From positions 1 through 43,640 of the forward strand of contig JALWTA010000035.1 in the NCBI GenBank assembly GCA_027082955.1: a stretch of 43,640 bases of DNA, written 5' to 3'. Origin of the DNA: Sulfurovum sp. Its GTDB lineage: Bacteria; Campylobacterota; Campylobacteria; Campylobacterales; Sulfurovaceae. The notes under the pieces are model-generated. The model did not search any database. It had not been told where the DNA came from and saw only the letters and a list, made by a program, of their open reading frames with translations. This document shows, piece after piece, positions 22,473-38,569 of the stretch (the stretch's first letter is position 1; every line of letters begins with the position of its first letter). The translations under genes were made by a program, and so were the position numbers.

Positions 22473-22475
22473 ATC

Positions 22476-22503
22476 AGTGAAGAGTGAAGAGTGAAGAGTG
22501 AAG
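22476..22503. repeat. Heptamer tandem array (AGTGAAG)4
   Basis: Four perfect copies of AGTGAAG beginning three bases after the SPFH stop codon. The same array, same orientation and copy number, occurs at 24659-24686. It is paired with the array at 22542-22569. Confidence 0.9.
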
Positions 22504-22514
22504 AGTTTCGGTAT

Positions 22515-22533
22515 GCTTTTCCAGCGGAAAAGC
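22515..22533 (+). other. Hairpin in the spacer between two heptamer arrays
   Basis: GCTTTTCC (22515-22522) and GGAAAAGC (22526-22533) form a perfect 8-bp stem around AGC. It occupies the spacer between the two 7-bp arrays. It might also end the SPFH transcript, but no strong T-tract follows. Confidence 0.6.
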
Positions 22534-22541
22534 TACTGTTT

Positions 22542-22569
22542 CTGAACACTGAACGCTGAACGCTGAACG
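22542..22569. repeat. Heptamer tandem array (CTGAACR)4
   Basis: CTGAACA followed by three CTGAACG units, ending two bases before the hisIE ribosome-site hairpin. Partner of the AGTGAAG array in the same gap. Confidence 0.9.
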
Positions 22570-22571
22570 CT

Positions 22572-22592
22572 GATAATTTCGGAGAAATTATC
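22572..22592 (+). promoter_or_regulatory. Hairpin enclosing the hisIE ribosome-binding site
   Basis: GATAATTTC (22572-22580) is perfectly complementary to GAAATTATC (22584-22592) around the loop GGA. The Shine-Dalgarno GGAG is thus in the loop and first pair, and the 3' arm abuts the ATG at 22593. A stable form would occlude initiation; the AT-rich stem could open with temperature or with a ligand. Confidence 0.6.
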
Positions 22593-23261
22593 ATGACCAT
22601 AGACTGGAACCAAACCCCCCTCATCCCCGCCATCGCACAGGATGCCGACACCAACGAAGTACTCATGCTCGCCTATATGAACAAAAAGGCGTATGAGCTT
22701 ACCCTCTCCACCGGTTACGCCCACTACTTCAGCCGTTCCAAACAGCGCATCTGGAAAAAGGGCGAGAGTTCGGGGCATACGCAGGAAGTTAAAGATGTTC
22801 TGCTTGACTGTGATGCCGATACTGTGATACTTAAAATCAAACAGAACGGTGTTGCCTGCCATACGGGACGCAAAAGCTGCTTCTTTACCTCTGTGATGCA
22901 AAATAAGGTCATCCTCGACAAAGAGGTCGATACCGATGCTATCTATGGTGTGGTCGATACCCTTTACCACACTATTTTAGAGCGCAAAAATGCCCCGGCA
23001 GAGCAGAAGTCATGGACCAAAAAACTGCTTGACAATAAAACGTTGATGCTCAGCAAAATCACCGAAGAGGCACAGGAAGTCGTCGATGCCATCGACCACG
23101 AAAGTGATGAACAGGTCATCTACGAGTCTGCCGACCTGCTCTACCATACCCTTGTAGGACTGGGATATCGCAACATCTCTCCAGACAGGGTCAAACAGGA
23201 ACTGGCACGCAGATTTGGTATGAGTGGGATAGAAGAGAAAGAGAACAGAAAGAAATCGTAG
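22593..23261 (+). CDS. hisIE: Bifunctional phosphoribosyl-AMP cyclohydrolase / phosphoribosyl-ATP pyrophosphatase
   Basis: 222 residues. The N-terminal HisI domain (about 1-115) has EVLMLAYMNKKAYELT, WKKGESSGHTQEV, the zinc-site DCDADTV and NGVACHTGRKSCF. The C-terminal HisE domain (about 118-210) has KITEEAQEVVDA and YESADLLYHTLVGL. It catalyses steps 2 and 3 of histidine synthesis. GGAG lies about 9 nt before the ATG inside a perfect hairpin. The stop is five bases from the convergent purF stop. Confidence 0.93.
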   Translation: MTIDWNQTPLIPAIAQDADTNEVLMLAYMNKKAYELTLSTGYAHYFSRSKQRIWKKGESSGHTQEVKDVLLDCDADTVILKIKQNGVACHTGRKSCFFTSVMQNKVILDKEVDTDAIYGVVDTLYHTILERKNAPAEQKSWTKKLLDNKTLMLSKITEEAQEVVDAIDHESDEQVIYESADLLYHTLVGLGYRNISPDRVKQELARRFGMSGIEEKENRKKS

Positions 23262-23276: not shown

Positions 23277-24637
23277 CCGGCACAGCCCGGCGTATCTGCA
23301 TTGCCTCCGGCAAAGTAGTTTCCGTCAAAACTGACAAGCGAATAGGTACGGTCACGTCCAAGTGCATCGACCAGTCCATCAACCGTCAAGAACCCCAACG
23401 AATCAGCCGCAATTTTCTCAGCTACCTCATCGACACTGAAGTTTGCAGAGATCAGCTCCGCACGTGTAGGGGTATCTATCCCGTAGCGACACGGGAATTT
23501 GATCTCAGGTGCAGCGATACGCATATGCACCTCAGCCGCACCAGCCTCTTTAAGCATGCGAACAATCTGCCGTGACGTCGTACCGCGTACCAGCGAATCA
23601 TCGATGATCGCTACACGTTTTCCCTTAATGAGATGTTTGATAGGAGAGAGTTTCAGTTTTACCTTAAGATCTCTGATCTCCTGTGTAGGCTCAATAAAAG
23701 TACGCCCCACATAGTGGTTTCGCACTATTCCCATCTCAAACGGTACACCAAGCCCTTCGGCATACCCGCGTGCAGCTGCCACACCGCTGTCAGGTACCGG
23801 CAGGACAAGGTCCACATCCGCAGGCGCTTCCTCTGCCAGTTTTCGACCCATCTGAAGCCGTGTCTGGTAGACATTTTTACCATCAATGATACTGTCAGGT
23901 CTTGCAAAGTAGATGTACTCAAATGCACACGGATGATAGTCCGGTTCAAAAATCTGCTCAGAAACAGGTTCTTTACCCTCTTCGAAAATAAGCATCTCAC
24001 CCGGTTTCACATCGCGTACAAACTCTGCACCGACAAGGTCAAATGCACAGGTTTCACTTGCCACGATCCAGCCGCCTTCAGGCAGTTTTCCAAGACTGAG
24101 CGGTCTGATGCCGTAACGGTCACGGATGACAAACATCTTCGAACGGCTCTGGATCGCCAGACAGTATGCCCCCTCAATGCGCGTAAGCATATCTTTGATA
24201 CGGTCAACCAGAGAATCCTTCTGCGACTTTGCGATCAAATGGATAATATTCTCCGTATCCATATCGGTCTGGAAAATCGCCCCTTTTGCAATGAGGTCGT
24301 TGCGCACTTCATGCTTGTTGACAAGGTTACCATTATGTACCACCGAAATTTCACCCAGCTTGTACTTGGCAAAAACCGGCTGCGCGTCCCCTTGTGATTC
24401 ACTGCCTGCTGTAGAGTAACGGTTGTGTCCTACCGCACAGGTTCCTTCCAGAGAGTCAAGTGTCGCCTGCGAAAAGACATCCGCAACCATCCCGCGTTTT
24501 TTGTAAAGCTTGATATTTGTACCGTTAGCCGTTGAGATACCTGTCGCTTCCTGTCCTCTGTGCTGCATAGCAAAGAGCGAGTAGTAGGCAACCGTAGAGG
24601 CTTTCTTGGCTCCAAATACACCGACGATGGCACACAT
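23267..24637 (-). CDS. purF: Amidophosphoribosyltransferase
   Basis: 456 residues. MCAIVGVFG places the glutaminase nucleophile Cys2 straight after the initiator, with no propeptide. The N-terminal Ntn glutaminase domain (RYSTAGSE, VVHNGNLVN) is followed by the phosphoribosyltransferase domain with the PRPP loop VAIIDDSLVRGTT. HPCAFEYIYFARPDS and FPCRYGID carry two of the cysteines that hold a 4Fe-4S cluster in Bacillus-type enzymes. The C-terminal GCAGGC could supply the others, but the usual CxxCFTG is absent. It makes phosphoribosylamine for purines. The frame extends to 24694 only by reading through a heptamer array; ATG 24637 has GGAG. Confidence 0.92.
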   Translation of the reverse strand: MCAIVGVFGAKKASTVAYYSLFAMQHRGQEATGISTANGTNIKLYKKRGMVADVFSQATLDSLEGTCAVGHNRYSTAGSESQGDAQPVFAKYKLGEISVVHNGNLVNKHEVRNDLIAKGAIFQTDMDTENIIHLIAKSQKDSLVDRIKDMLTRIEGAYCLAIQSRSKMFVIRDRYGIRPLSLGKLPEGGWIVASETCAFDLVGAEFVRDVKPGEMLIFEEGKEPVSEQIFEPDYHPCAFEYIYFARPDSIIDGKNVYQTRLQMGRKLAEEAPADVDLVLPVPDSGVAAARGYAEGLGVPFEMGIVRNHYVGRTFIEPTQEIRDLKVKLKLSPIKHLIKGKRVAIIDDSLVRGTTSRQIVRMLKEAGAAEVHMRIAAPEIKFPCRYGIDTPTRAELISANFSVDEVAEKIAADSLGFLTVDGLVDALGRDRTYSLVSFDGNYFAGGNADTPGCAGGC

Positions 24638-24658
24638 TACTTTTCTCCTAGAGAAAAG

Positions 24659-24686
24659 AGTGAAGAGTGAAGAGTGAAGAGTGAAG
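24659..24686. repeat. Heptamer tandem array (AGTGAAG)4, second copy
   Basis: Four perfect AGTGAAG units plus a partial AGTGA, between the purF start and the dapB stop. Identical in unit, phase direction and copy number to 22476-22503. Confidence 0.9.
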
Positions 24687-24714
24687 AGTGACAATGTTTC
24701 ATTTGATTTTCTCT

Positions 24715-24742
24715 TTTTTAATTTTTAACTTTTAATTTTTAA
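24715..24742. repeat. Heptamer tandem array (YTTTTAA)4
   Basis: TTTTTAA, TTTTTAA, CTTTTAA, TTTTTAA in register, ending one base before the dapB stop codon (24744-24746). Separated by 28 nt from the AGTGAAG array. Confidence 0.8.
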
Positions 24743-24743
24743 C

Positions 24744-25511
24744 TCAAATACCAAGACAGTCATTGATCGTATAGAACCCTGCAGGTTGGTCTATCAGCCA
24801 CTTCGCTGCACGAATGGCACCTTTGGAGAAGGTTTCGCGGCTTGTAGCGGTATGGTTGAGTTCAAGGAACTCCCCGTCGTTGTAGAAACCGACCGTATGC
24901 CGTCCGACAATATCTCCGCCGCGCAGTGCCATCACCGCGATCTCATCTTTGGTTCTGGCACCTACCTGACCGTCTCTGCCGCTGACACGTACCTCGTCAA
25001 GATCAAGCCCGCGTCCTTTGGCTGCAAACTCCGCCAGTGTCAGTGCCGTACCGCTTGGGGCATCAACTTTGTGTCTATGGTGCTGTTCTACAATCTCGAT
25101 ATCGAAATCTTTCAGTGTCGCAGAAACCTGCTCTACGAGCTGCTTGAGCAGTGCGATACCCGCAGACATATTGGATGAGTAGAGTACGGGCATCTCTTTG
25201 CTCGCTTCTGTCAAAAGGTTTTGCTGATGTTCGCTAAAGCCTGTAGTTGCCACCACCAGCGGGGTTGGATTTTTCAGTGCCGCTTCACAGAGTGCTTCAG
25301 TAGCTACAGGTGCCGAGAAGTCAATGATGACATCACACGCCTCAAGCAATGCATCCATACTATTGGTGATGAGCACATCATCTGGCACATCCATTTTCAG
25401 TTCATCGAACACATGCAGTCCTGCAAGTGTGAGCGCCTCGTCTTCCAATGTATTTTCTATGAGGTGTTTCCCCATACGTCCTGTACTGCCTACAATCCCT
25501 ACTTTTACCAT
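24744..25511 (-). CDS. dapB: 4-hydroxy-tetrahydrodipicolinate reductase
   Basis: 255 residues. N-terminal Rossmann motif VKVGIVGSTGRMG, the SNMSAGIALL segment, and the active-site EIVEQHHRHKVDAPSGTAL with catalytic His and Lys. GGDIVGRHTVGF is typical of the C-terminal domain. It reduces dihydrodipicolinate in lysine and diaminopimelate synthesis. Start ATG 25511 lies one base after the trxB stop with CAGGAG inside trxB; the longer frame to 25622 is an overlap artefact. Confidence 0.94.
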   Translation of the reverse strand: MVKVGIVGSTGRMGKHLIENTLEDEALTLAGLHVFDELKMDVPDDVLITNSMDALLEACDVIIDFSAPVATEALCEAALKNPTPLVVATTGFSEHQQNLLTEASKEMPVLYSSNMSAGIALLKQLVEQVSATLKDFDIEIVEQHHRHKVDAPSGTALTLAEFAAKGRGLDLDEVRVSGRDGQVGARTKDEIAVMALRGGDIVGRHTVGFYNDGEFLELNHTATSRETFSKGAIRAAKWLIDQPAGFYTINDCLGI

Positions 25512-28407: not shown

Positions 28408-28436
28408 ATTGTTATATTATTATACACGATAACAAT
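28408..28436 (-). terminator. AU-rich hairpin at the jetD 3' end
   Basis: ATTGTTAT (28408-28415) pairs with ATAACAAT (28429-28436), loop 13 nt. It overlaps the last codons of jetD and could mark the end of the Wadjet transcript. Confidence 0.4.
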
Positions 28437-29593
28437 GCATGCAGCTGTTCTTGAACATACCCTATCGGAATACGCTCCTGCTCCAAACGAAAGGCTTTTT
28501 GACGCAAATCTTCAAGGAGTTCTCTCTCCTCTTCCGTTAGTCGTTCCGCTGCCCCCTCATAGCGCTTCTCTTTCGGCTCTTCGACGGCAAGATGGGCGAA
28601 GCGATCGGCGGTGGGTCGATCCATCATCAAAGAGCGGGTATGGGGAAACAAGGTACGAAACTGCGAGAGGATCGCAAAGCCGTGGCTGTCAAGGTCACCC
28701 CAGTAGTACAGGTGTTTATCTGCCATCCATCGGGCACCTTTAAGGTCACGTGCGCCGTAGCCGCTACCGAAGACAATCATACTTTTGGGACAGGGAGGAA
28801 AGGCAAGGAAAGTAGCGAGATTTTCGATGACAAAGATGCGTTCCACTTCCGTCTGTAGGCTTTCAAAAGCGGACTTTGGCAGGGCAAGATTCATCTGGCC
28901 GGAGATGGCGTCAGAGGGATCGAGCAGACGGAATCGGATCATCGGCTGCGGGGTAAGAAAGCCGTACTTGGCTTCAAAGCCGCCGTTTGCAAGCGTTGTG
29001 ATCGTCGCATTATACGCCTCTTTGGGCAGCAAGTGTGTCAGCAGCAGATCGAGTACCTTCTTGTGTGATGCGATGAACTTGGTATCAACCCCCTCAATGG
29101 GAAGTTCACGCAGATAGATGTGAGGATGGGGATGTGCAATGAGGTAGCGGCAGACGGAGACGATGCGCTCCCACGCACCTGTATAGCTCTCGATCAGTTT
29201 CGGTTTTTCAACCAGCAACAAATAGAGTGCAGGGAAAGCATCCAGCACCACCCTGCTTTCTGCCACAAACGCATTGAACCGCTCCTGCAATCCCAGTAGA
29301 CGCAAATAATCCTCACGCGTCCCAAAAACGACGCCAATGGGCAATCGCTGCTCACCAAGTGCGGCGAATTGAAAACGCCGATACTCCAACGGCAGTCCGG
29401 CACTCTCCAACATTTTGATCGCTTTGCGAATCGTTTCAAATCTACTACGGATCTCCTTTTCAGAAGGACGCTTCAAGCTGATTCGCAATGGAAAAAGTGT
29501 GTCATCCTCTTGCAGCCAATCCGCCTGCACCGCACCGCGCTCATAGAAACGCAACGCCTTTTTTCGCAACACTTCAAGATCGTAATAGCCCAC
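28412..29593 (-). CDS. jetD: Wadjet nuclease JetD (Toprim-like)
   Basis: 393 residues. N-terminal DUF3322-like domain and C-terminal DUF2220 Toprim domain. Catalytic-type motifs are FVIEN (Glu257) and YYWGDLDSHG (Asp300, Asp302), the metal-binding set of topoisomerase VI-type Toprim folds. In Wadjet, JetD cleaves closed circular DNA after the JetABC SMC-like motor has extruded it. GTG start at 29593 shares one base with the jetC stop. Last gene of jetABCD. Confidence 0.9.
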   Translation of the reverse strand: MGYYDLEVLRKKALRFYERGAVQADWLQEDDTLFPLRISLKRPSEKEIRSRFETIRKAIKMLESAGLPLEYRRFQFAALGEQRLPIGVVFGTREDYLRLLGLQERFNAFVAESRVVLDAFPALYLLLVEKPKLIESYTGAWERIVSVCRYLIAHPHPHIYLRELPIEGVDTKFIASHKKVLDLLLTHLLPKEAYNATITTLANGGFEAKYGFLTPQPMIRFRLLDPSDAISGQMNLALPKSAFESLQTEVERIFVIENLATFLAFPPCPKSMIVFGSGYGARDLKGARWMADKHLYYWGDLDSHGFAILSQFRTLFPHTRSLMMDRPTADRFAHLAVEEPKEKRYEGAAERLTEEERELLEDLRQKAFRLEQERIPIGYVQEQLHALLSCIII

Positions 29594-32500
29594 TACCGCT
29601 CCTCTTTGCGTCTGCGATACTCCTCGATCTTCATCGAGACAAGTGTCGAGGAGCGTCCGCCGTCATTGTGGACGAAGTGGACAGTTTTGACGTAGGGTTC
29701 TATCACGTTGATCTTCTGTTTGGGAGTAATCACCAGCAGTTGTAGATCGAGACTCTCAAAAAGACGCAAGGCGTAGCGGGTACTCTCATCACTTCCGCGT
29801 CCGAAAGCTTCATCGATCATCACGAAACGAAACGATCGGCTCTGCACACGGTTGTGCTCCAGCCCGAACTGAAACGCCAGTGAAGATGCCAACACCGTAT
29901 AGGCAAGTTTCTCTTTCTGTCCGCCCGATTTGCCGCCGCTGTCGGTGTAGTACTCTTTAAGCTCGTCGTTGCTGACAAATCGCTCCTCCGCGCTAAAATC
30001 AAACCAGTTGCGCACATCGGTCACCCGTTTGCGCCATTTGCGATCTTCGTCGCTGTGCCCTTCGCGCCCGTTAAAGCGCTCGATAATCGCCTTGATCTGC
30101 AAAAACTTCTGCTCATCATAGCTGTTATCCTCAAGAATCGCTCCCGAAATAGCCGCTTTGAGCTGCGCTTTGAACTCGCGAATCTCCGCCGATTTGACCG
30201 TCTCGGCGACCAGACGGATATAGGTGCCTTCGCTATACTCGATGTCTCGCAGTGAGGCGTTGATCTTCTCGATCTTTTCGACAATCTCGTTACTCTGCTG
30301 CTCCAAGGTATATTGCAATGTCACGAAGTGCTGCACCATCTTTTCGCGCAATAGCGACTTGAACCGTTTGCGCCATCTTGGCAGATCGTCGCGTTTGAGT
30401 TCGGCAAGTTTTTTGCGGTACTCGGGCGCCGACTCCACCGCCGCGTCAAACTCTTTGGCGATGACGGGAAACGCTGCATTGAAGCGTCCCATATCTCCAA
30501 TGATCTTCTCCCGCGATCGACCGATACGTTTCTCTATCTTGTCAATCTCCTGCGTCAGTCGCTCCCGCAACTCTTTTCTGCGCGCATCGATTGTTACCAG
30601 TGTCAATCCCGCAGTGAGCGCATCACCCGCGAAGTCGGCGATCGCCCCCTCCAGCTTCTCTAATGCATCGGCATTCTCCACCAGAAGTTGCGCGTTGTTG
30701 CGCTGTAGCTGTATATCTTCCATCTGCTGCTCCAGCTTTCCGAGCATCGAAGTAAGTTCATCAAGCTCTTTTTTGAGCGTACGGTGTTTCTGTGTTGCCT
30801 GCTCAAGCTGTGCCGTCAGCTCCTCGATGATGCTTGAACTCTTCTGCAGCGCCTCCCACTCCGCCTGCAACGCTTCAATACGGTGACTCGGGGTGTACCA
30901 ATCGATAACGGCAAATCGCTCGATCGAGAGCAGATCACGCAAATTGTCGCGCTCTTTCGTCAATGCCTGAAGCGCATGGGTGATAACTTCGGTCTCCTTG
31001 GCAAGATGGGCGATCTTCTCGCTTACATTCTCCTTCTCTTCCCGCAACGCGGCCAGCTTCTCGGCATTGTCCCACCCCAGTACCCAGCGGGAACGGTCGT
31101 CGATGGCGTGGCGATCATCCTTTTCATGGCGTTCATAGGAGGTTTTGAACTGCCCGTGAACGGTAACGGCACGCTTGAGTCGCCGAAACGCCTCTATTGA
31201 ATCGACGCAGGGGATATTGAACCGTGCTGCCACCAACGACTCCAGTGAGGTGGCAAAAGGAGAATCGGCTTTGATCTCGATCTTATGTAGTAGCGAATCG
31301 TCGGCAATCTCTACCGGTTCGCCCTCTCGATCACGATCAACCTTTAGATAGACCAGTTTCCCGCCGAGATGGGTCTGCTCCACATACTCCGCCACCGCCT
31401 TATAGTGCGCGGTATCGACCAGCAACGAGAGGGCGAAGTTGTGCAGTACCCGCTCCGTCGCCCCCTGCCACTTCGCATTGATGCTGCGGATCAGCTCTCC
31501 GGCGAAAGGTAACTCCTCCGTCTCCAGACCCAACGCTACCGCCATCTCATCACGAATACGCGCGGTTTTGGGCGGGATATTGCTGCGACGCGCCTCAAGA
31601 TAGGTGATTTCGTTCTCCAACCTCTCACCTTGTTCCTTATAGCGTGCCAGCATCACGCCGTTGGTGACCTTTTCGTTTTGCAGCTGCGTCGCTTTGGTTT
31701 CGATCTGCGTTAGTCGCTGCTGTGCCGTTTCTCTGTTTTTCAAAAAACGGTGTTCATTGGAAGCCTTGTCGATGCCGATCGCCTCGCAGAGTTCGTCATA
31801 ACGTTGCTTTGCCGTCTGCCGCTGCGTCATCTGCTGCGCTTCACGATCGATCTCGCGTTGCAATTGCTCCAATCTGTCGGCGCCGTTTTTCTGCAACTCC
31901 ATCTTCAGATCGAGCATCGTCCGTTCGCTACGCTCCAGCTCTTCACTGAACTTCTCTTTTTTCGAACGTCTCTTTTGCGTTTCGATCTGAAGCTTGGCAA
32001 GCTTCTCGTCGATCAGCCCGATTCGCCGTTTAGCGAAAAAAGGATCGATCGTGTCACGCATCCGGCGATAATAAAGCCTTTGCGATTCCAACGCCTCGTA
32101 GCGTCGGCTCTCCTTCTCGATCGGCGTAAGCATCTCGATCTGCCGCTGCGCCTCTATGATTAGATTGTGTGCGCGGGTCAGTTCGGCGAAGTTGCGACAC
32201 ACCTCATCGACCTTTTCGTCGATCGATTCGGGTTCGAGCATATGGTTGCGGATAAACTCCGTCAAATTGCCGATCGATTTGAGCGAGACAGTCTGGTAAA
32301 AAAGGTGTAGTGCCTGTTCGTTGCGAATCCCCATAATGCGCCGAAAATGTGCGCTATACTCCTTGAAAGCATCAAAAACTTCGGTGTGAGGCAGCTTTTT
32401 GAGCCGTCGTTTGAGATCCCGGATATCGGTAAAATCTAAAAAATCTTTTTTGATAGCCAGCTCACCCTGTGACGCGGCATAGAATTTCTGCACCTGCCCT

Positions 32501-32931
32501 TTGGATATCCAAAAAAATTGCGCCAGGCTCAACTGTTCCGCGTATCCCTCATTTTCAAAACGCGCAAGTAGAACGGTAAAGGTGGTGTTGGGATCCCGCA
32601 ATGCCGCCGCTTTGGCGCTGCCGAAGGTCTCATCGCGCACACTTTTATACTCACCGACGATATAGGAGTAGAGGCTCCGCTCGCGACTCTCGGCACCCGC
32701 CGCCTTGTTATAGACAATACGGTTGTGCGGCACCAGCAGCGTCGTCAAGGCATCTACCACAGTCGATTTGCCCGATCCGATCTCACCGGTGAGCAGGGCA
32801 TTTTCTCGCTCAAGATCGAGCGAAAAGATATCGCCGTCGTAAGTACCCCAGTTGTACCACTCAAAGTGTGCCAGTCGAAACCCGGTATGAGCGTTATCTT
32901 CTGCAAAGTCAAACCGCTGCTCTACTGCCAT
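29593..32931 (-). CDS. jetC: Wadjet SMC-like ATPase JetC
   Basis: 1112 residues. Walker A GEIGSGKST (49-57) near the N-terminus, long charged coiled-coil arms (about 230-480 and 640-930) around a hinge-like middle, an ABC signature SGGQKEKLAY and Walker B FRFVMIDEAFGRGS near residue 1050. It is an MksB/MukB-like loop-extruding motor. Start ATG 32931 overlaps jetB by 10 nt. Confidence 0.93.
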   Translation of the reverse strand: MAVEQRFDFAEDNAHTGFRLAHFEWYNWGTYDGDIFSLDLERENALLTGEIGSGKSTVVDALTTLLVPHNRIVYNKAAGAESRERSLYSYIVGEYKSVRDETFGSAKAAALRDPNTTFTVLLARFENEGYAEQLSLAQFFWISKGQVQKFYAASQGELAIKKDFLDFTDIRDLKRRLKKLPHTEVFDAFKEYSAHFRRIMGIRNEQALHLFYQTVSLKSIGNLTEFIRNHMLEPESIDEKVDEVCRNFAELTRAHNLIIEAQRQIEMLTPIEKESRRYEALESQRLYYRRMRDTIDPFFAKRRIGLIDEKLAKLQIETQKRRSKKEKFSEELERSERTMLDLKMELQKNGADRLEQLQREIDREAQQMTQRQTAKQRYDELCEAIGIDKASNEHRFLKNRETAQQRLTQIETKATQLQNEKVTNGVMLARYKEQGERLENEITYLEARRSNIPPKTARIRDEMAVALGLETEELPFAGELIRSINAKWQGATERVLHNFALSLLVDTAHYKAVAEYVEQTHLGGKLVYLKVDRDREGEPVEIADDSLLHKIEIKADSPFATSLESLVAARFNIPCVDSIEAFRRLKRAVTVHGQFKTSYERHEKDDRHAIDDRSRWVLGWDNAEKLAALREEKENVSEKIAHLAKETEVITHALQALTKERDNLRDLLSIERFAVIDWYTPSHRIEALQAEWEALQKSSSIIEELTAQLEQATQKHRTLKKELDELTSMLGKLEQQMEDIQLQRNNAQLLVENADALEKLEGAIADFAGDALTAGLTLVTIDARRKELRERLTQEIDKIEKRIGRSREKIIGDMGRFNAAFPVIAKEFDAAVESAPEYRKKLAELKRDDLPRWRKRFKSLLREKMVQHFVTLQYTLEQQSNEIVEKIEKINASLRDIEYSEGTYIRLVAETVKSAEIREFKAQLKAAISGAILEDNSYDEQKFLQIKAIIERFNGREGHSDEDRKWRKRVTDVRNWFDFSAEERFVSNDELKEYYTDSGGKSGGQKEKLAYTVLASSLAFQFGLEHNRVQSRSFRFVMIDEAFGRGSDESTRYALRLFESLDLQLLVITPKQKINVIEPYVKTVHFVHNDGGRSSTLVSMKIEEYRRRKEER

Positions 32932-33494
32932 AGTCCCGCCTCTCGATACTCTTGTAGTTTTCGATCAAAATCGGCAAGCCACTGCGCATCGACAAAGGCT
33001 TTGATCGATCGGCGAATCTCATAGTGATCCGCCTCGCCCCGCAATTTTTTCAAAAAGCCCAACTCTTCTACTTTTTTGATCGTGCTCTCAAGCTCACGAC
33101 GCAGTTTCACCTCATCGAAGGTCTCCGGCATAAAGAGCAACAGTTGCTCCAAGAGATCCTCTTTGGTAACCACCGCGCGAAAGTCGTCACTTTGCATGTC
33201 AAAGTCGGCGATGCGCTTACGCAGCAGTACACAAAGCAGCGACACTTTGTAGCCAAGCTCACGTGCCGGGATCAGCTTCGGCAGGGGCGTCTCCCCCTCT
33301 TCAGGCTCCCGTTGCCGCAGATAGGCGTACCCCTCCGCCTCGTCGATCACAGGCTCCAGCCCGATCACATCGAAATAGTCACTGATCGTCCCGTGCGCCG
33401 CGCCCACTAGCGCCTCCCACGCCGCCTCGTTGTCACGGCGGTCGAAGAGCCCCTTCATCAACAATACGATCGCTTCCCGTGCTTCTCGTTGCAT
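32922..33494 (-). CDS. jetB: Wadjet KITE-like subunit JetB
   Basis: 190 residues, DUF4194/MksE-like winged-helix subunit that bridges JetA and the JetC heads. Recognisable stretches are EAIVLLMKGLFDRRDNEAAWEAL, ELGYKVSLLCVLLRKR and the C-terminal YEIRRSIKAFVDAQWL. AAGGATAG precedes the ATG. Unlike typical jet operons it is separated from jetA by 130 nt. Confidence 0.9.
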   Translation of the reverse strand: MQREAREAIVLLMKGLFDRRDNEAAWEALVGAAHGTISDYFDVIGLEPVIDEAEGYAYLRQREPEEGETPLPKLIPARELGYKVSLLCVLLRKRIADFDMQSDDFRAVVTKEDLLEQLLLFMPETFDEVKLRRELESTIKKVEELGFLKKLRGEADHYEIRRSIKAFVDAQWLADFDRKLQEYREAGLWQ

Positions 33495-33550
33495 TTTTAT
33501 CTATCCTTTTTGTGTATAGAGAATGATGTTGTGTGTATTATATTTTGGAG

Positions 33551-33625
33551 GCGGGGTTTCAACCCCGCATAACGGAACCAAAGTCCCTGCTCCTGATAGG
33601 GATAGTAGCTGCATAGTCACTATCC
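33551..33625 (-). repeat. Two hairpins separating jetA from jetB
   Basis: GCGGGGTTTCAACCCCGC (33551-33568) is an almost loop-less 8-bp palindrome of REP type. A second stem, GGATAGT (33600-33606) with ACTATCC (33619-33625), touches the jetA stop codon. Together they fill most of the jetA-jetB gap (33495-33624). Confidence 0.7.
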
Positions 33626-35052
33626 TACTCTCTCGTAAATACCGTTTTGGGTATCCGCACCTTTTTGAAGTTGCCGTCAAAATCCTTCACTTCCACCACC
33701 TCATAGACCTCTTTTTCTATCCGTGCCGTGCTGCGCGATTTGGCGACGGTGTAGTATCCGATCAACTCTGCGATCCCCTTGTCCGCCCCGTAGTGCGCCA
33801 CCACCTCCCCCAGGGTACACTGCACCCGCTCTTGCAGCAGGGTGTCGATGCGTCGCTTCAACAACGCCTCATCAACATAACACTGGTGCAAAAAGCTTTC
33901 CAGATCGATCGTCGCCGCTTTGGGTTCGATGCGCGCCTCGAAGTGGGTATCGCTGCGCAGTCGGTAGAGGCGTTTGTCGGCAATTGAGGAGATCGTCACT
34001 TTTGCGCCCGGCAGTGCGGTGAAGGTGCGTGACTTTGGCATCGATTCTTTACACTCCAACGCCTGCTTTTCGATCGTTCTGCATAACTCTAAAATGCGCC
34101 GATTCTCTACCCAGACCCGATCGTCGATAAAGCGGCGCAACTGTTCGATGAGTCTGCCGGTAACGGTGACGATCTTCTCACCGCTTCCAAGCAGTTCATA
34201 CTTGAGATTTTTGAGTCGCCGCTGCGGATCGAAACGGCGCACACTCTCTAATGCATAGAGTTTTTCGATCATCTCGCTCAGCTTCGTGCTGCGCTCCATA
34301 TCGGTCAGCAGCTGCCAGAAGGCGAAAAAACTCTTGCCCTGATCGCTCTCGCGTATCTCATCCTCGATAACGAAAATCGACCCCAGCACCTCCGCCTTGG
34401 CATCCTCCCGCATTGCGATTGTCTCCATCGCGCGGGTGTTGAGTTCGCGGAAGTTGTACTCTATCTCGGCGAAGTCATATTTGAGCGCACGCGCGATCTC
34501 TTCGATCTGCATATACTGCTCTTTGACGCGGCTCTCATCGAAACGCAGCGCTGTTTTGGAGCGGATCGCTTCGATCTGCGCGTCAATCTCGCGCTTCTTC
34601 GCTTCTAACTTTTCGATGCGCGCCTCATCATCCAGCTCCGTCTCGAACGCCAACTCTTCGATTAGCTCAAATATGAGATTGAAGCGCGACCGGCTTCCAA
34701 TAAACTCTCGCTTTTGCAAACTCTCGATCCACTCCAATGCCTTTTGGGTGTGGGGTGTTAGATCGTAGATCGGCTCCTCCGCATCGCCGTAATATTTGCG
34801 CAAATAGCCGCTGTTGGCAAAGTCGTTCAGATACTCCTGCGCCGCTTTAGGAAAGGCGCCATCCTCCTGCTCGTTGAGGATAAAAAGATAATCCTCAAGA
34901 TACCGCACCAGTTCCGACTGCAAGATCGAACTCCTACGCGCCTCGACAAAAACGGCATGAAAAAAAGAAAGAGACATCGCGAAGTTGTCGCTGCAGAGCA
35001 GGCGCAGTGTCTGATGGCTCTTTTTGAGGGCTTTGAGGTAGTCGTAGGTCAC
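33625..35052 (-). CDS. jetA: Wadjet kleisin-like subunit JetA
   Basis: 475 residues, DUF3375/MksF-like kleisin. The N-terminus TYDYLKALKKSHQTLRLLCSDN and the following helical bundle (SFFHAVFVEARRSSILQSEL) are typical. A predicted coiled coil lies around 145-200. It links the JetC heads in the Wadjet loop-extrusion complex. The start is GTG 35052, overlapping the TGA that closes the hepT remnant (GTGA). This and the next three genes look more GC-rich than their neighbours, as expected for an acquired module (visual impression only). Confidence 0.9.
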   Translation of the reverse strand: MTYDYLKALKKSHQTLRLLCSDNFAMSLSFFHAVFVEARRSSILQSELVRYLEDYLFILNEQEDGAFPKAAQEYLNDFANSGYLRKYYGDAEEPIYDLTPHTQKALEWIESLQKREFIGSRSRFNLIFELIEELAFETELDDEARIEKLEAKKREIDAQIEAIRSKTALRFDESRVKEQYMQIEEIARALKYDFAEIEYNFRELNTRAMETIAMREDAKAEVLGSIFVIEDEIRESDQGKSFFAFWQLLTDMERSTKLSEMIEKLYALESVRRFDPQRRLKNLKYELLGSGEKIVTVTGRLIEQLRRFIDDRVWVENRRILELCRTIEKQALECKESMPKSRTFTALPGAKVTISSIADKRLYRLRSDTHFEARIEPKAATIDLESFLHQCYVDEALLKRRIDTLLQERVQCTLGEVVAHYGADKGIAELIGYYTVAKSRSTARIEKEVYEVVEVKDFDGNFKKVRIPKTVFTRE

Positions 35053-35144
35053 TGCACCGATCCGTACTCATTAACAATATTATCAACAAATGTGATCTTT
35101 TTTCGAATATTTTCAATACGACTCAGTGCTTTTTGGCTATACAT
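35049..35144 (-). pseudogene. Truncated HEPN (HepT-like) gene fragment
   Basis: ATG 35144 overlaps the mntA stop by 8 nt, the usual arrangement of MNT-HEPN pairs. The frame codes for 31 residues beginning MYSQKALSRIENIRKK and ending NEYGSVQ, the N-terminal helix of HepT/DUF86-type HEPN proteins, which normally run to about 110-140 residues with an RxxxxxY active site. The rest is absent: the TGA overlaps the jetA start. Read as a remnant cut by arrival of the Wadjet module. Confidence 0.75.
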
Positions 35145-35451
35145 AGATCAACTCATTTTCTATCTGTTTTTTAAAAGGGGAATGACTATCGAGGTCAAAA
35201 ATATCAATCTTTCTATGAAAGGTTCTTCGCAGTGTTTCTCGCAAAGAAGAGATCAGCTCAAAGTAGCGATATGCATCCATCTCTTTTTGCACTGCTTTAT
35301 GCTTTGCAACGGCAATATCAATATCACTATAGAGAGTCGTTTGACCTGTTGCATAACTGCCAAATAGAGCGATCTTCTCTATACCCTCTGCTTCCAGTTG
35401 GGGTTTGAGCTCCCGCAGTCTCTCCAATATTGCTTCTTTCGTCGGTTTCAT
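35137..35451 (-). CDS. MNT-type nucleotidyltransferase (MntA-like antitoxin)
   Basis: 104 residues. The minimal nucleotidyltransferase motif GSYATGQTTLYSDIDIAV (Gly31, Ser32, Asp43, Asp45) and a third acidic strand KIDIFDL are present. In HepT-MntA systems this protein adds AMP to the HEPN RNase and so neutralises it. Here the partner gene is only a fragment, so the antitoxin is orphaned unless a second HEPN gene exists elsewhere. Confidence 0.85.
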   Translation of the reverse strand: MKPTKEAILERLRELKPQLEAEGIEKIALFGSYATGQTTLYSDIDIAVAKHKAVQKEMDAYRYFELISSLRETLRRTFHRKIDIFDLDSHSPFKKQIENELIYV

Positions 35452-37972: not shown

Positions 37973-38026
37973 CTAAGGGCTAAGGGCTAAGGGCTAAGGG
38001 CTAAGGGCTAAGGGCTAAGGGCTAAG
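37973..38026. repeat. Heptamer tandem array (CTAAGGG)7
   Basis: Seven perfect CTAAGGG units (37973-38021) plus a partial, beginning at the first base after the TAA of the small Cys-rich gene. Confidence 0.93.
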
Positions 38027-38045
38027 CATAATATTTACTTATGCT
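38025..38045. other. Hairpin in the spacer between two heptamer arrays
   Basis: AGCATAA (38025-38031) pairs with TTATGCT (38039-38045), loop 7 nt. It lies between the CTAAGGG and TTAAACC arrays, as the hairpin at 22515-22533 lies between two other arrays. Confidence 0.6.
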
Positions 38046-38048
38046 GTA

Positions 38049-38069
38049 TTAAACCTTAAACCTTAATCC
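38049..38069. repeat. Heptamer tandem array (TTAAWCC)3
   Basis: TTAAACC, TTAAACC, TTAATCC in register, ending on the first base of the yajQ stop codon complement (38069-38071). Confidence 0.75.
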
Positions 38070-38569
38070 TATTTAAAATTCCCAAACGTCAACGGCGCTT
38101 TCAAATCTTCCATCTTTCTTACCAGTGCGATGACTGCCTGAAGGTCATCAATTTTCTTACCACTGACACGGATCTCATCGCCCTGTATCGCAGGCGTGAC
38201 CTTAAGCTTGGCATCTTTGATCGCCTTGACGATCTTCTTGGCTTCATCTTTTTCAATGCTGTCGATGATGCGGTAGATCACTTTGACATTACCGCCACTG
38301 ATCCCCTCTGTCTTGACTTCTTCGAGTGATTTGGGTGAAAGTCCGCGTTTGATCATTTTGGAGATGACGATGTCTTTGAGTGCATCGATCTTGCTGTTGC
38401 TCGAACTTGAGAGGTTTAGTACCTTGGTTTTCTCATTCAAGTCAATATCAGTCATGATCCCCTTAAAATCAAAACGTGTAGCAACCTCTTTTTTAGCCTG
38501 CTCAATGGCATTTTTCATCTCCATCATATCAAGCTTTGCCGAGATATCAAAATAGTGATCTTTTGCCAT
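38069..38569 (-). CDS. yajQ: YajQ-family (UPF0234) nucleotide-binding protein
   Basis: 166 residues, full family length. ATRFDFKG and KDAKLKVTPAIQGDEIRVSGKKIDDLQ are diagnostic. YajQ proteins bind nucleotides (c-di-GMP in some relatives) and have been linked to regulation; the role here is not known. The gene lies 10 nt after hom on the same strand. Its 3' end touches a heptamer array. Confidence 0.93.
   Translation of the reverse strand: MAKDHYFDISAKLDMMEMKNAIEQAKKEVATRFDFKGIMTDIDLNEKTKVLNLSSSSNSKIDALKDIVISKMIKRGLSPKSLEEVKTEGISGGNVKVIYRIIDSIEKDEAKKIVKAIKDAKLKVTPAIQGDEIRVSGKKIDDLQAVIALVRKMEDLKAPLTFGNFK

Follow-up and report, generated by a model that had tools for sequence, protein, structure and literature searches.

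The gap between the SPFH and hisIE genes in this Sulfurovum genome is most likely, judging from sequence comparison, one copy of a Sulfurovum-specific family of intergenic insertions in which tandem arrays of 7-nt units are combined with hairpins. We place a probability of roughly 0.55 on the reading that such a copy acts as a MIRU-like junction insertion, which would stop translation in all frames and, inside operons, restart it downstream. The gap lies in the window (the whole stretch of 43,640 nt analysed here, contig C35), and the host genome of 2.1 Mb in 48 contigs was sampled as stretches amounting to 843,540 bases (~40%). Gene calls come from a simple codon-score script, from which a standard annotator may differ, and the genes flanking the gaps discussed below carry Pfam domains of SPFH/Band 7, PRA-CH/PRA-PH (HisIE), glutamine amidotransferase/PRPP domains (PurF), DapB and DUF520. 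Rfam gave no match above the gathering score in window positions 14000-40000.

The SPFH-hisIE gap (22473-22592) holds two heptamer arrays and two hairpins in the window sequence:

22476-22506, plus strand: left array (AGTGAAG)4.4, 100% identity, from repeat finding
22492-22540, plus strand: half-element made up of the final two AGTGAAG units, TTTCGGTATGC, a variable-stem hairpin and a tail (model R1, 52.2 bits, E 4.7e-12)
22515-22533, plus strand: perfect 8-bp hairpin GCTTTTCC-agc-GGAAAAGC
22542-22573, plus strand: right array (CTGAACR)4.6, 96% identity, from repeat finding
22572-22592, plus strand: 9-bp hairpin GATAATTTC-gga-GAAATTATC, which encloses the hisIE ribosome-binding site and abuts the ATG at 22593

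A previous, sequence-only reading of this DNA had described the gap as (AGTGAAG)4, an 8-bp hairpin and (CTGAACR)4, and all three are present, the arrays at 4.4 and 4.6 copies and the stem without a mismatch. The AGTGAAG array begins 3 nt past the SPFH stop codon, and every one of its units contains a stop (TGA/GTGA). The hairpin at 22515-22533 scores as terminator-like in a consensus scan of the sequence, and the hairpin at 22572-22592 recurs around the ribosome-binding site in orthologous SPFH-hisIE gaps. Among the other orthologous gaps, several species have heptamer composites and most of the remaining species have GTAG-type REP dimers; such dimers (GTAGGGTGTTGT...ACAACACCCTAC) occupy the slot at loci L082, L085, L086, L088, L146 and L158.

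The half-element recurs throughout the genome in a fixed order, which consists of a heptamer array, GTWTGC, a hairpin of variable stem and a TTTTATT or similar tail, and it points away from the gene edge, with two half-elements often facing each other across one gap. The AGTGAAG array end joined to NNNGGTNNGC, the foot of the hairpin, has 57 matches in the genome as opposed to 1 for the reversed control. In 30 pattern matches picked regardless of stem, 29 are followed by a mismatch-free stem of 7-8 bp, compared with stems of at least 6 bp in 6 of 6000 shuffles; these 29 share a foot of GTAT, GTTT or GTAA and carry 11 different stems. A covariance model of the half-element (R1) finds at least 86 copies in the host genome. 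Among other Sulfurovum genomes searched, six have 41-95 copies, several have 1-18 and the remainder none. Outside the genus, 16 genera were searched with one genome apiece, which gave no convincing match and a single weak one (E 0.004). The sequence-only reading had argued that differing words speak against one spreading sequence, a view that the dispersed unit of array, GTWTGC hairpin and TTTTATT in at least 86 host copies does not support. Hairpins of at least 6 bp just upstream of the start codon are likewise concentrated at array-bearing genes (14 of 37, vs 17 of 427 others; p 3e-9).

The period of the arrays is almost invariant. Among periods 2 to 20, the 843,540 host bases contain, at a scaled threshold, 71 arrays of period 7 and two of period 6, all other periods being unrepresented. 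These counts and the 57 matches vs 1 for the array end and hairpin foot exclude chance as the source of the pattern. The earlier claim of a composite element with a nearly exclusive period is borne out, and the alternative that other periods are equally common is excluded; 1.15 Mb from 80 relatives contains 34 period-7 arrays vs 4 of other periods. Placement is not random either, as the arrays hug gene edges. At 3' edges the median distance to the stop codon is 0-6 nt, and for about 18 of 39 such arrays the gene's own stop forms part of the array; at 5' edges the arrays lie ~21 nt upstream of the start. The words themselves are not arbitrary, and most carry a stop codon in the direction leading out of the gene (56 of 63; letter permutation gives a mean of 44.4 and never reached 56 in 2000 trials). 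This excess arises partly because the words are purine-rich, T plus two purines being a stop three times in four. Thus, chance alone was rejected as the source of the stop codons, since permuted words yield fewer, and purine bias accounts for part of them.

Array words also differ with context. DTGA-type arrays accompany the hairpin half in 15 of 20 cases, compared with 5 of 36 for TAA/TAG arrays (p 8e-6), and co-directional genes are found at 19 of 20 DTGA-type arrays vs 22 of 36 TAA/TAG arrays, while convergent gaps hold TAA/TAG arrays only. On contig C7 of the host genome, a shared sequence, GCTGAAGGACTGACGTGTTGTCGTT...CTGGAAA...TATTAGGACA, lies ~150 nt upstream of two TAA-type arrays, TAAACTC and TAATTCC (L005 and L013). 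As for pairing, gaps with two arrays number 16, above the 6.3 (uniform) or 10.0 (length-weighted) expected, and most of their pairs are inverted. An excess of pairs is therefore present, but gaps with a single array outnumber them at 45, so that of the three refuting conditions named in the sequence-only reading the one on single arrays does apply.

Two further gaps in the window, between dapB and purF (gap 2) and beside the DUF520 gene (gap 3), had been described as sharing one plan with the focal gap. They contain the following:

24656-24691, plus strand: array (AAGAGTG)5.1 upstream of purF (minus strand), stop-free when read toward purF
24715-24744, minus strand: array TTAAAAA, running from the dapB stop codon onward, with TAA in each unit
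24637-24702, minus strand: relay ORF MKHCHSSLFTLHSSLFSLGEK, whose stop TAA overlaps the purF ATG (TAATG)
24640-24658 (approximate limits), minus strand: hairpin CTTTTCTC-tag-GAGAAAAG, enclosing the purF ribosome-binding site
37973-38026, plus strand: array (CTAAGGG)7.7 (equivalently TAAGGGC x7.7), immediately past a stop codon
38049-38070, minus strand: array TAAGGTT, running from the stop codon of the convergent DUF520 gene onward

The array pairs claimed for these gaps were thus located, at 24656-24691/24715-24744 and 37973-38026/38049-38070. Spacers separate the arrays in all three gaps, although their lengths by TRF are 35, 23 and 22 nt as opposed to the 38, 28 and about 25 nt first given. 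Each gap does have two arrays, but the likeness is partial. Gap 1, the focal gap, has a full half-element and a second array; gap 2 retains only a decayed half-element without its hairpin (19.5 bits with model R1); and gap 3 (37973-38070) is of the TAA type, with a hairpin and words that differ from those of the focal gap. The three therefore do not follow one plan. Orthologues of the array at 37973-38026 read TAAGTGC x15 or TAGCAGG x7. Between these two gaps, a block of genes at 28412-35451 (between w28 and w34) is lacking between the orthologous neighbours in relatives and appears as a strain-specific insertion.

Comparison of filled with empty orthologous junctions at dapB|purF, ispG|dnaB and ubiX|coaD identifies the composite, at the level of sequence, as an insertion. 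The dapB-purF gap is 1 nt in 37 genomes and 96-173 bp in the window and near relatives that have array inserts; these sit exactly between stop and start and bring their own ribosome-binding-site hairpin. At ispG-dnaB and ubiX-coaD the genes overlap or adjoin in the empty state, and the composite fills these junctions in 12 and 13 sampled genomes, respectively. On a DnaB tree the filled and empty states change about seven times and sister genomes differ, with only two of the changes forced by strongly supported branches. When a DTGA target duplication was looked for, TGA was found at both ends of the insert at ispG-dnaB (L279 vs L282), and the empty dapB-purF state had no TGA. The three junctions are a non-random sample of slots whose orthologues are non-independent, and the evidence for insertion at coupled junctions is limited to them, SPFH-hisIE having REP dimers as the alternative filling in other species. 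REP-like inserts also occupy ispG-dnaB at L268, L277 and L289. DnaB itself varies, with frames of ~835 aa vs ~480 across genomes (G000:C27:5550, L264 and several congeners), the extra part being intein-like at the P-loop (GKC...).

Of the filled copies at these three slots, which as orthologues are non-independent, 34 of 37 contain a short relay ORF that terminates on the start codon of the gene downstream (coaD 13/13, dnaB 11/12 and purF 10/12 filled genomes). At coaD, the relay begins with an ATG behind a ribosome-binding site, located in the spacer or before it, then reads across the second hairpin and through the stop-free array to finish on the ATGA of coaD; its length varies from 31 to 36 codons, with the frame kept throughout. 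The reading frame through the hairpin differs between coaD and dnaB, and it is therefore the openness of the frame that is conserved, not a peptide. Across co-directional gaps, a relay is present in 17 of 37 (46%) that have a pyrimidine-rich array vs 59 of 533 that are array-free (p 4.5e-7), and a relay with ribosome-binding site and ATG in 11 vs 13 (p 2.6e-8). Stop-free arrays favour open frames in any case, an objection that is answered by an offset control, in which the 17 relays at the true start compare with 0-6 at 12 other offsets. The reading frames of the focal gap contain no relay ORF for hisIE, because the right array CTGAACR has TGA in the sense direction.

Folding predictions suggest that the left and right arrays are likely to pair in RNA. 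The focal gap has a predicted energy of -40 kcal/mol (z -4.58), with AGUG of the left units pairing with CGCU of the right at 4 bp per unit to give a ladder-like stem capped by the hairpin at 22515-22533. Eight SPFH-hisIE gaps from eight species are predicted to fold alike despite different words (z -3.9 to -8.4), as are most paired gaps of the host (median z -4.5). Inverted purine and pyrimidine arrays would pair anyway, and the test is thus partner swapping, in which 123 of 3000 swaps equalled the real pairs (p ~0.04), a marginal result; at the coaD slot partner-specific matching was absent. Word-by-word covariation of the paired arrays was set aside accordingly, being marginal overall and absent at coaD, and any selection for the predicted pairing is putative. 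The sequence-only reading had missed this pairing, as well as the hairpin around the ribosome-binding site, the rule of placement at gene edges, the polymorphism of filled and empty junctions and the relay ORF.

Under the MIRU-like reading, the array beside the end of gene A would serve as an all-frame translation stop. Since 7 equals 1 modulo 3 and each unit has a stop codon, a ribosome in any frame would meet a stop within ~21 nt. The facing array, stop-free in the reading direction, would let the relay ORF pass through and end on the start codon of gene B, the relay starting from an ATG and ribosome-binding site of its own within the spacer or left array, and translational coupling may in this way be kept across the insert, as has been proposed for MIRUs. 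The hairpins and array pairing would add a structured boundary, possibly a weak terminator. At the focal gap only the all-frame stop and the structured boundary would apply, not the relay. Several observations count against this reading, as the focal gap lacks a relay and only 46% of co-directional gaps have one, the outward-stop rule derives partly from purine-rich words, array pairing follows largely from inverted orientation, and period-7 arrays occur in other Campylobacterota where neither hairpin nor relay accompanies them.

The finer details of MIRUs were reportedly set out by Supply et al. in 1997. MIRUs are short interspersed intergenic repeats at coupled junctions; each contains an ORF that runs into the start of the following gene with its stop, which is proposed to render the insertion almost harmless (PMC12548453). 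The Sulfurovum element is likewise multi-copy, intergenic and found at coupled junctions (three slots). A relay ORF over the downstream start is seen in 34 of 37 copies at those slots, in 17 of 37 over all gaps and not at the focal gap. Unlike MIRUs, it has inverted heptamer arrays and two hairpins, one of them around the ribosome-binding site, its relay is not one fixed peptide frame, and some copies have no relay. We use the comparison as a working analogy of plan, in that the family may work like a MIRU, and do not claim membership in MIRUs proper. That bacteria carry heptamer arrays is not in itself new (Mrazek, 2007, cited by PMC4679880 and PMC4692102). In the available portion of the account of marine Beggiatoaceae, TAACTGA repeats are intergenic 7-nt arrays at gene edges that give stops in three frames and in some cases provide the stop of the upstream gene, all features shared with Sulfurovum, but they use one fixed word, mostly forward and just before start codons, and that portion describes no hairpin, pairing, insertion polymorphism or relay (MacGregor, 2015; PMC4679880). 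The word TAACTGA is absent from the array lists of the host and its relatives. The heptamers of cyanobacteria and Xanthomonas (STRR; GGGAATC) are similar in period, intergenic location and variation of words and lengths between relatives; the accessible part of that source has G-quadruplex potential as its theme for GGGAATC and does not describe a stop-codon rule or composite architecture (PMC4692102). Within the phylum, two other array-rich Campylobacterota genera showed neither the hairpin element nor the relay ORF nor the 5' orientation seen in Sulfurovum. In one stretch from another genus (G269:C1:280001-480000, L324-L333), all 11 3'-edge period-7 arrays have outward stops, and gene-start arrays are oriented opposite to those of Sulfurovum. 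DTGA heptamers were rejected as a phylum-wide signature, as the reversed control pattern was equally frequent, and the phylum scan therefore shows only that period-7 arrays are widespread.

The strongest competitor, possible though we hold it to be less probable than the MIRU-like reading, is that the half-element is an intrinsic terminator facing outward, so that the whole would act as a bidirectional transcription terminator or insulator in which the array is a by-product or spacer and the relay is incidental. Most copies do have a stem and T-rich tail (GC-stem-GC-TTTTATT), the focal hairpin looks like a terminator in the scan, and facing pairs are typical of bidirectional terminators. However, the stems are short and AT-rich, the element lies within operon pairs whose genes once overlapped, a position in which a terminator would starve the second gene, and neither relay ORFs nor stop arrays at gene edges are predicted. 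A more ambitious proposal, which we advance tentatively and consider doubtful, is an undescribed class of translationally transparent insertion cassette. Its DTGA-type heptamers would form a frame-independent stop-and-restart strip, in which each stop overlaps an ATG or GTG and the period of 7 places purine motifs ~8 nt before the next start, with the stop-free inverted array carrying the relay. What maintains period 7 would then be selection for cycling through the frames and for the spacing of ribosome-binding sites, and not polymerase slippage alone; the association of DTGA-type arrays with the hairpin half and with co-directional genes favours it.

It is unlikely, in our judgment, that the arrays are neutral, with replication slippage favouring 7-nt units that survive where stop-bearing units are tolerated and have no function. 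Among long simple repeats, heptamers are reported to outnumber all other unit lengths in many bacteria (Mrazek, 2007, in the passages of PMC4679880 and PMC4692102 that cite it), period 7 dominates in two other genera of the phylum that have no hairpin element, and both word and copy number turn over at a single slot (TAAGGGC x7.7, TAAGTGC x15 and TAGCAGG x7). Slippage leaves unexplained, however, the conserved hairpin feet (57 vs 1), the inverted pairs, the ribosome-binding-site hairpins and the relay ORFs aligned to start codons. Less probable still is that the element is a mobile repeat of REPIN type, mobilised by a transposase of the REP-associated (RAYT, Y1) kind. Like GTAG/CGTC REPs and REPINs (PMC3733652), the element occurs as facing, head-to-head hairpin dimers, is intergenic, has a high copy number and patchy distribution and may share slots with them, and the host genome has three Y1 transposase genes. 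Yet its foot is GTWT instead of GTAG or CGTC, its stems vary freely with heptamer arrays outside them, and GTAG-type REP dimers are an alternative filling of the same slots. The element is also absent from the flanks of all three Y1 genes, two of which are flanked by other palindromes, and no transposase borne by or linked to the element was found among the host Y1 genes and their flanks. REP/REPIN membership was thus rejected, there being no GTAG/CGTC tag, no conserved stem and no cognate Y1 transposase flanked by the element. The Y1 (RAYT-like) genes at L182 and L183 have palindromes of their own, of the GGAACCGACAGCTTCAGCGTCGG type and the GTTCCACATC-GGGA-GATGTGGAAC type. Integron attachment sites were also considered and rejected, since inspection revealed no conserved core sites.

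Heptamer repeats in bacterial gaps have long been catalogued without an accepted reason for their period or their place. In Sulfurovum they lie at gene edges, provide stops in all frames by sequence and are part of an insertion whose empty sites are seen in near relatives. If the relay works as the MIRU-like reading proposes, the family would add to MIRUs another, apparently independent, example of mobile DNA that has adapted to operons by keeping translational coupling, and these genomes would contain many additional small ORFs whose translation serves their location and not the peptide made.
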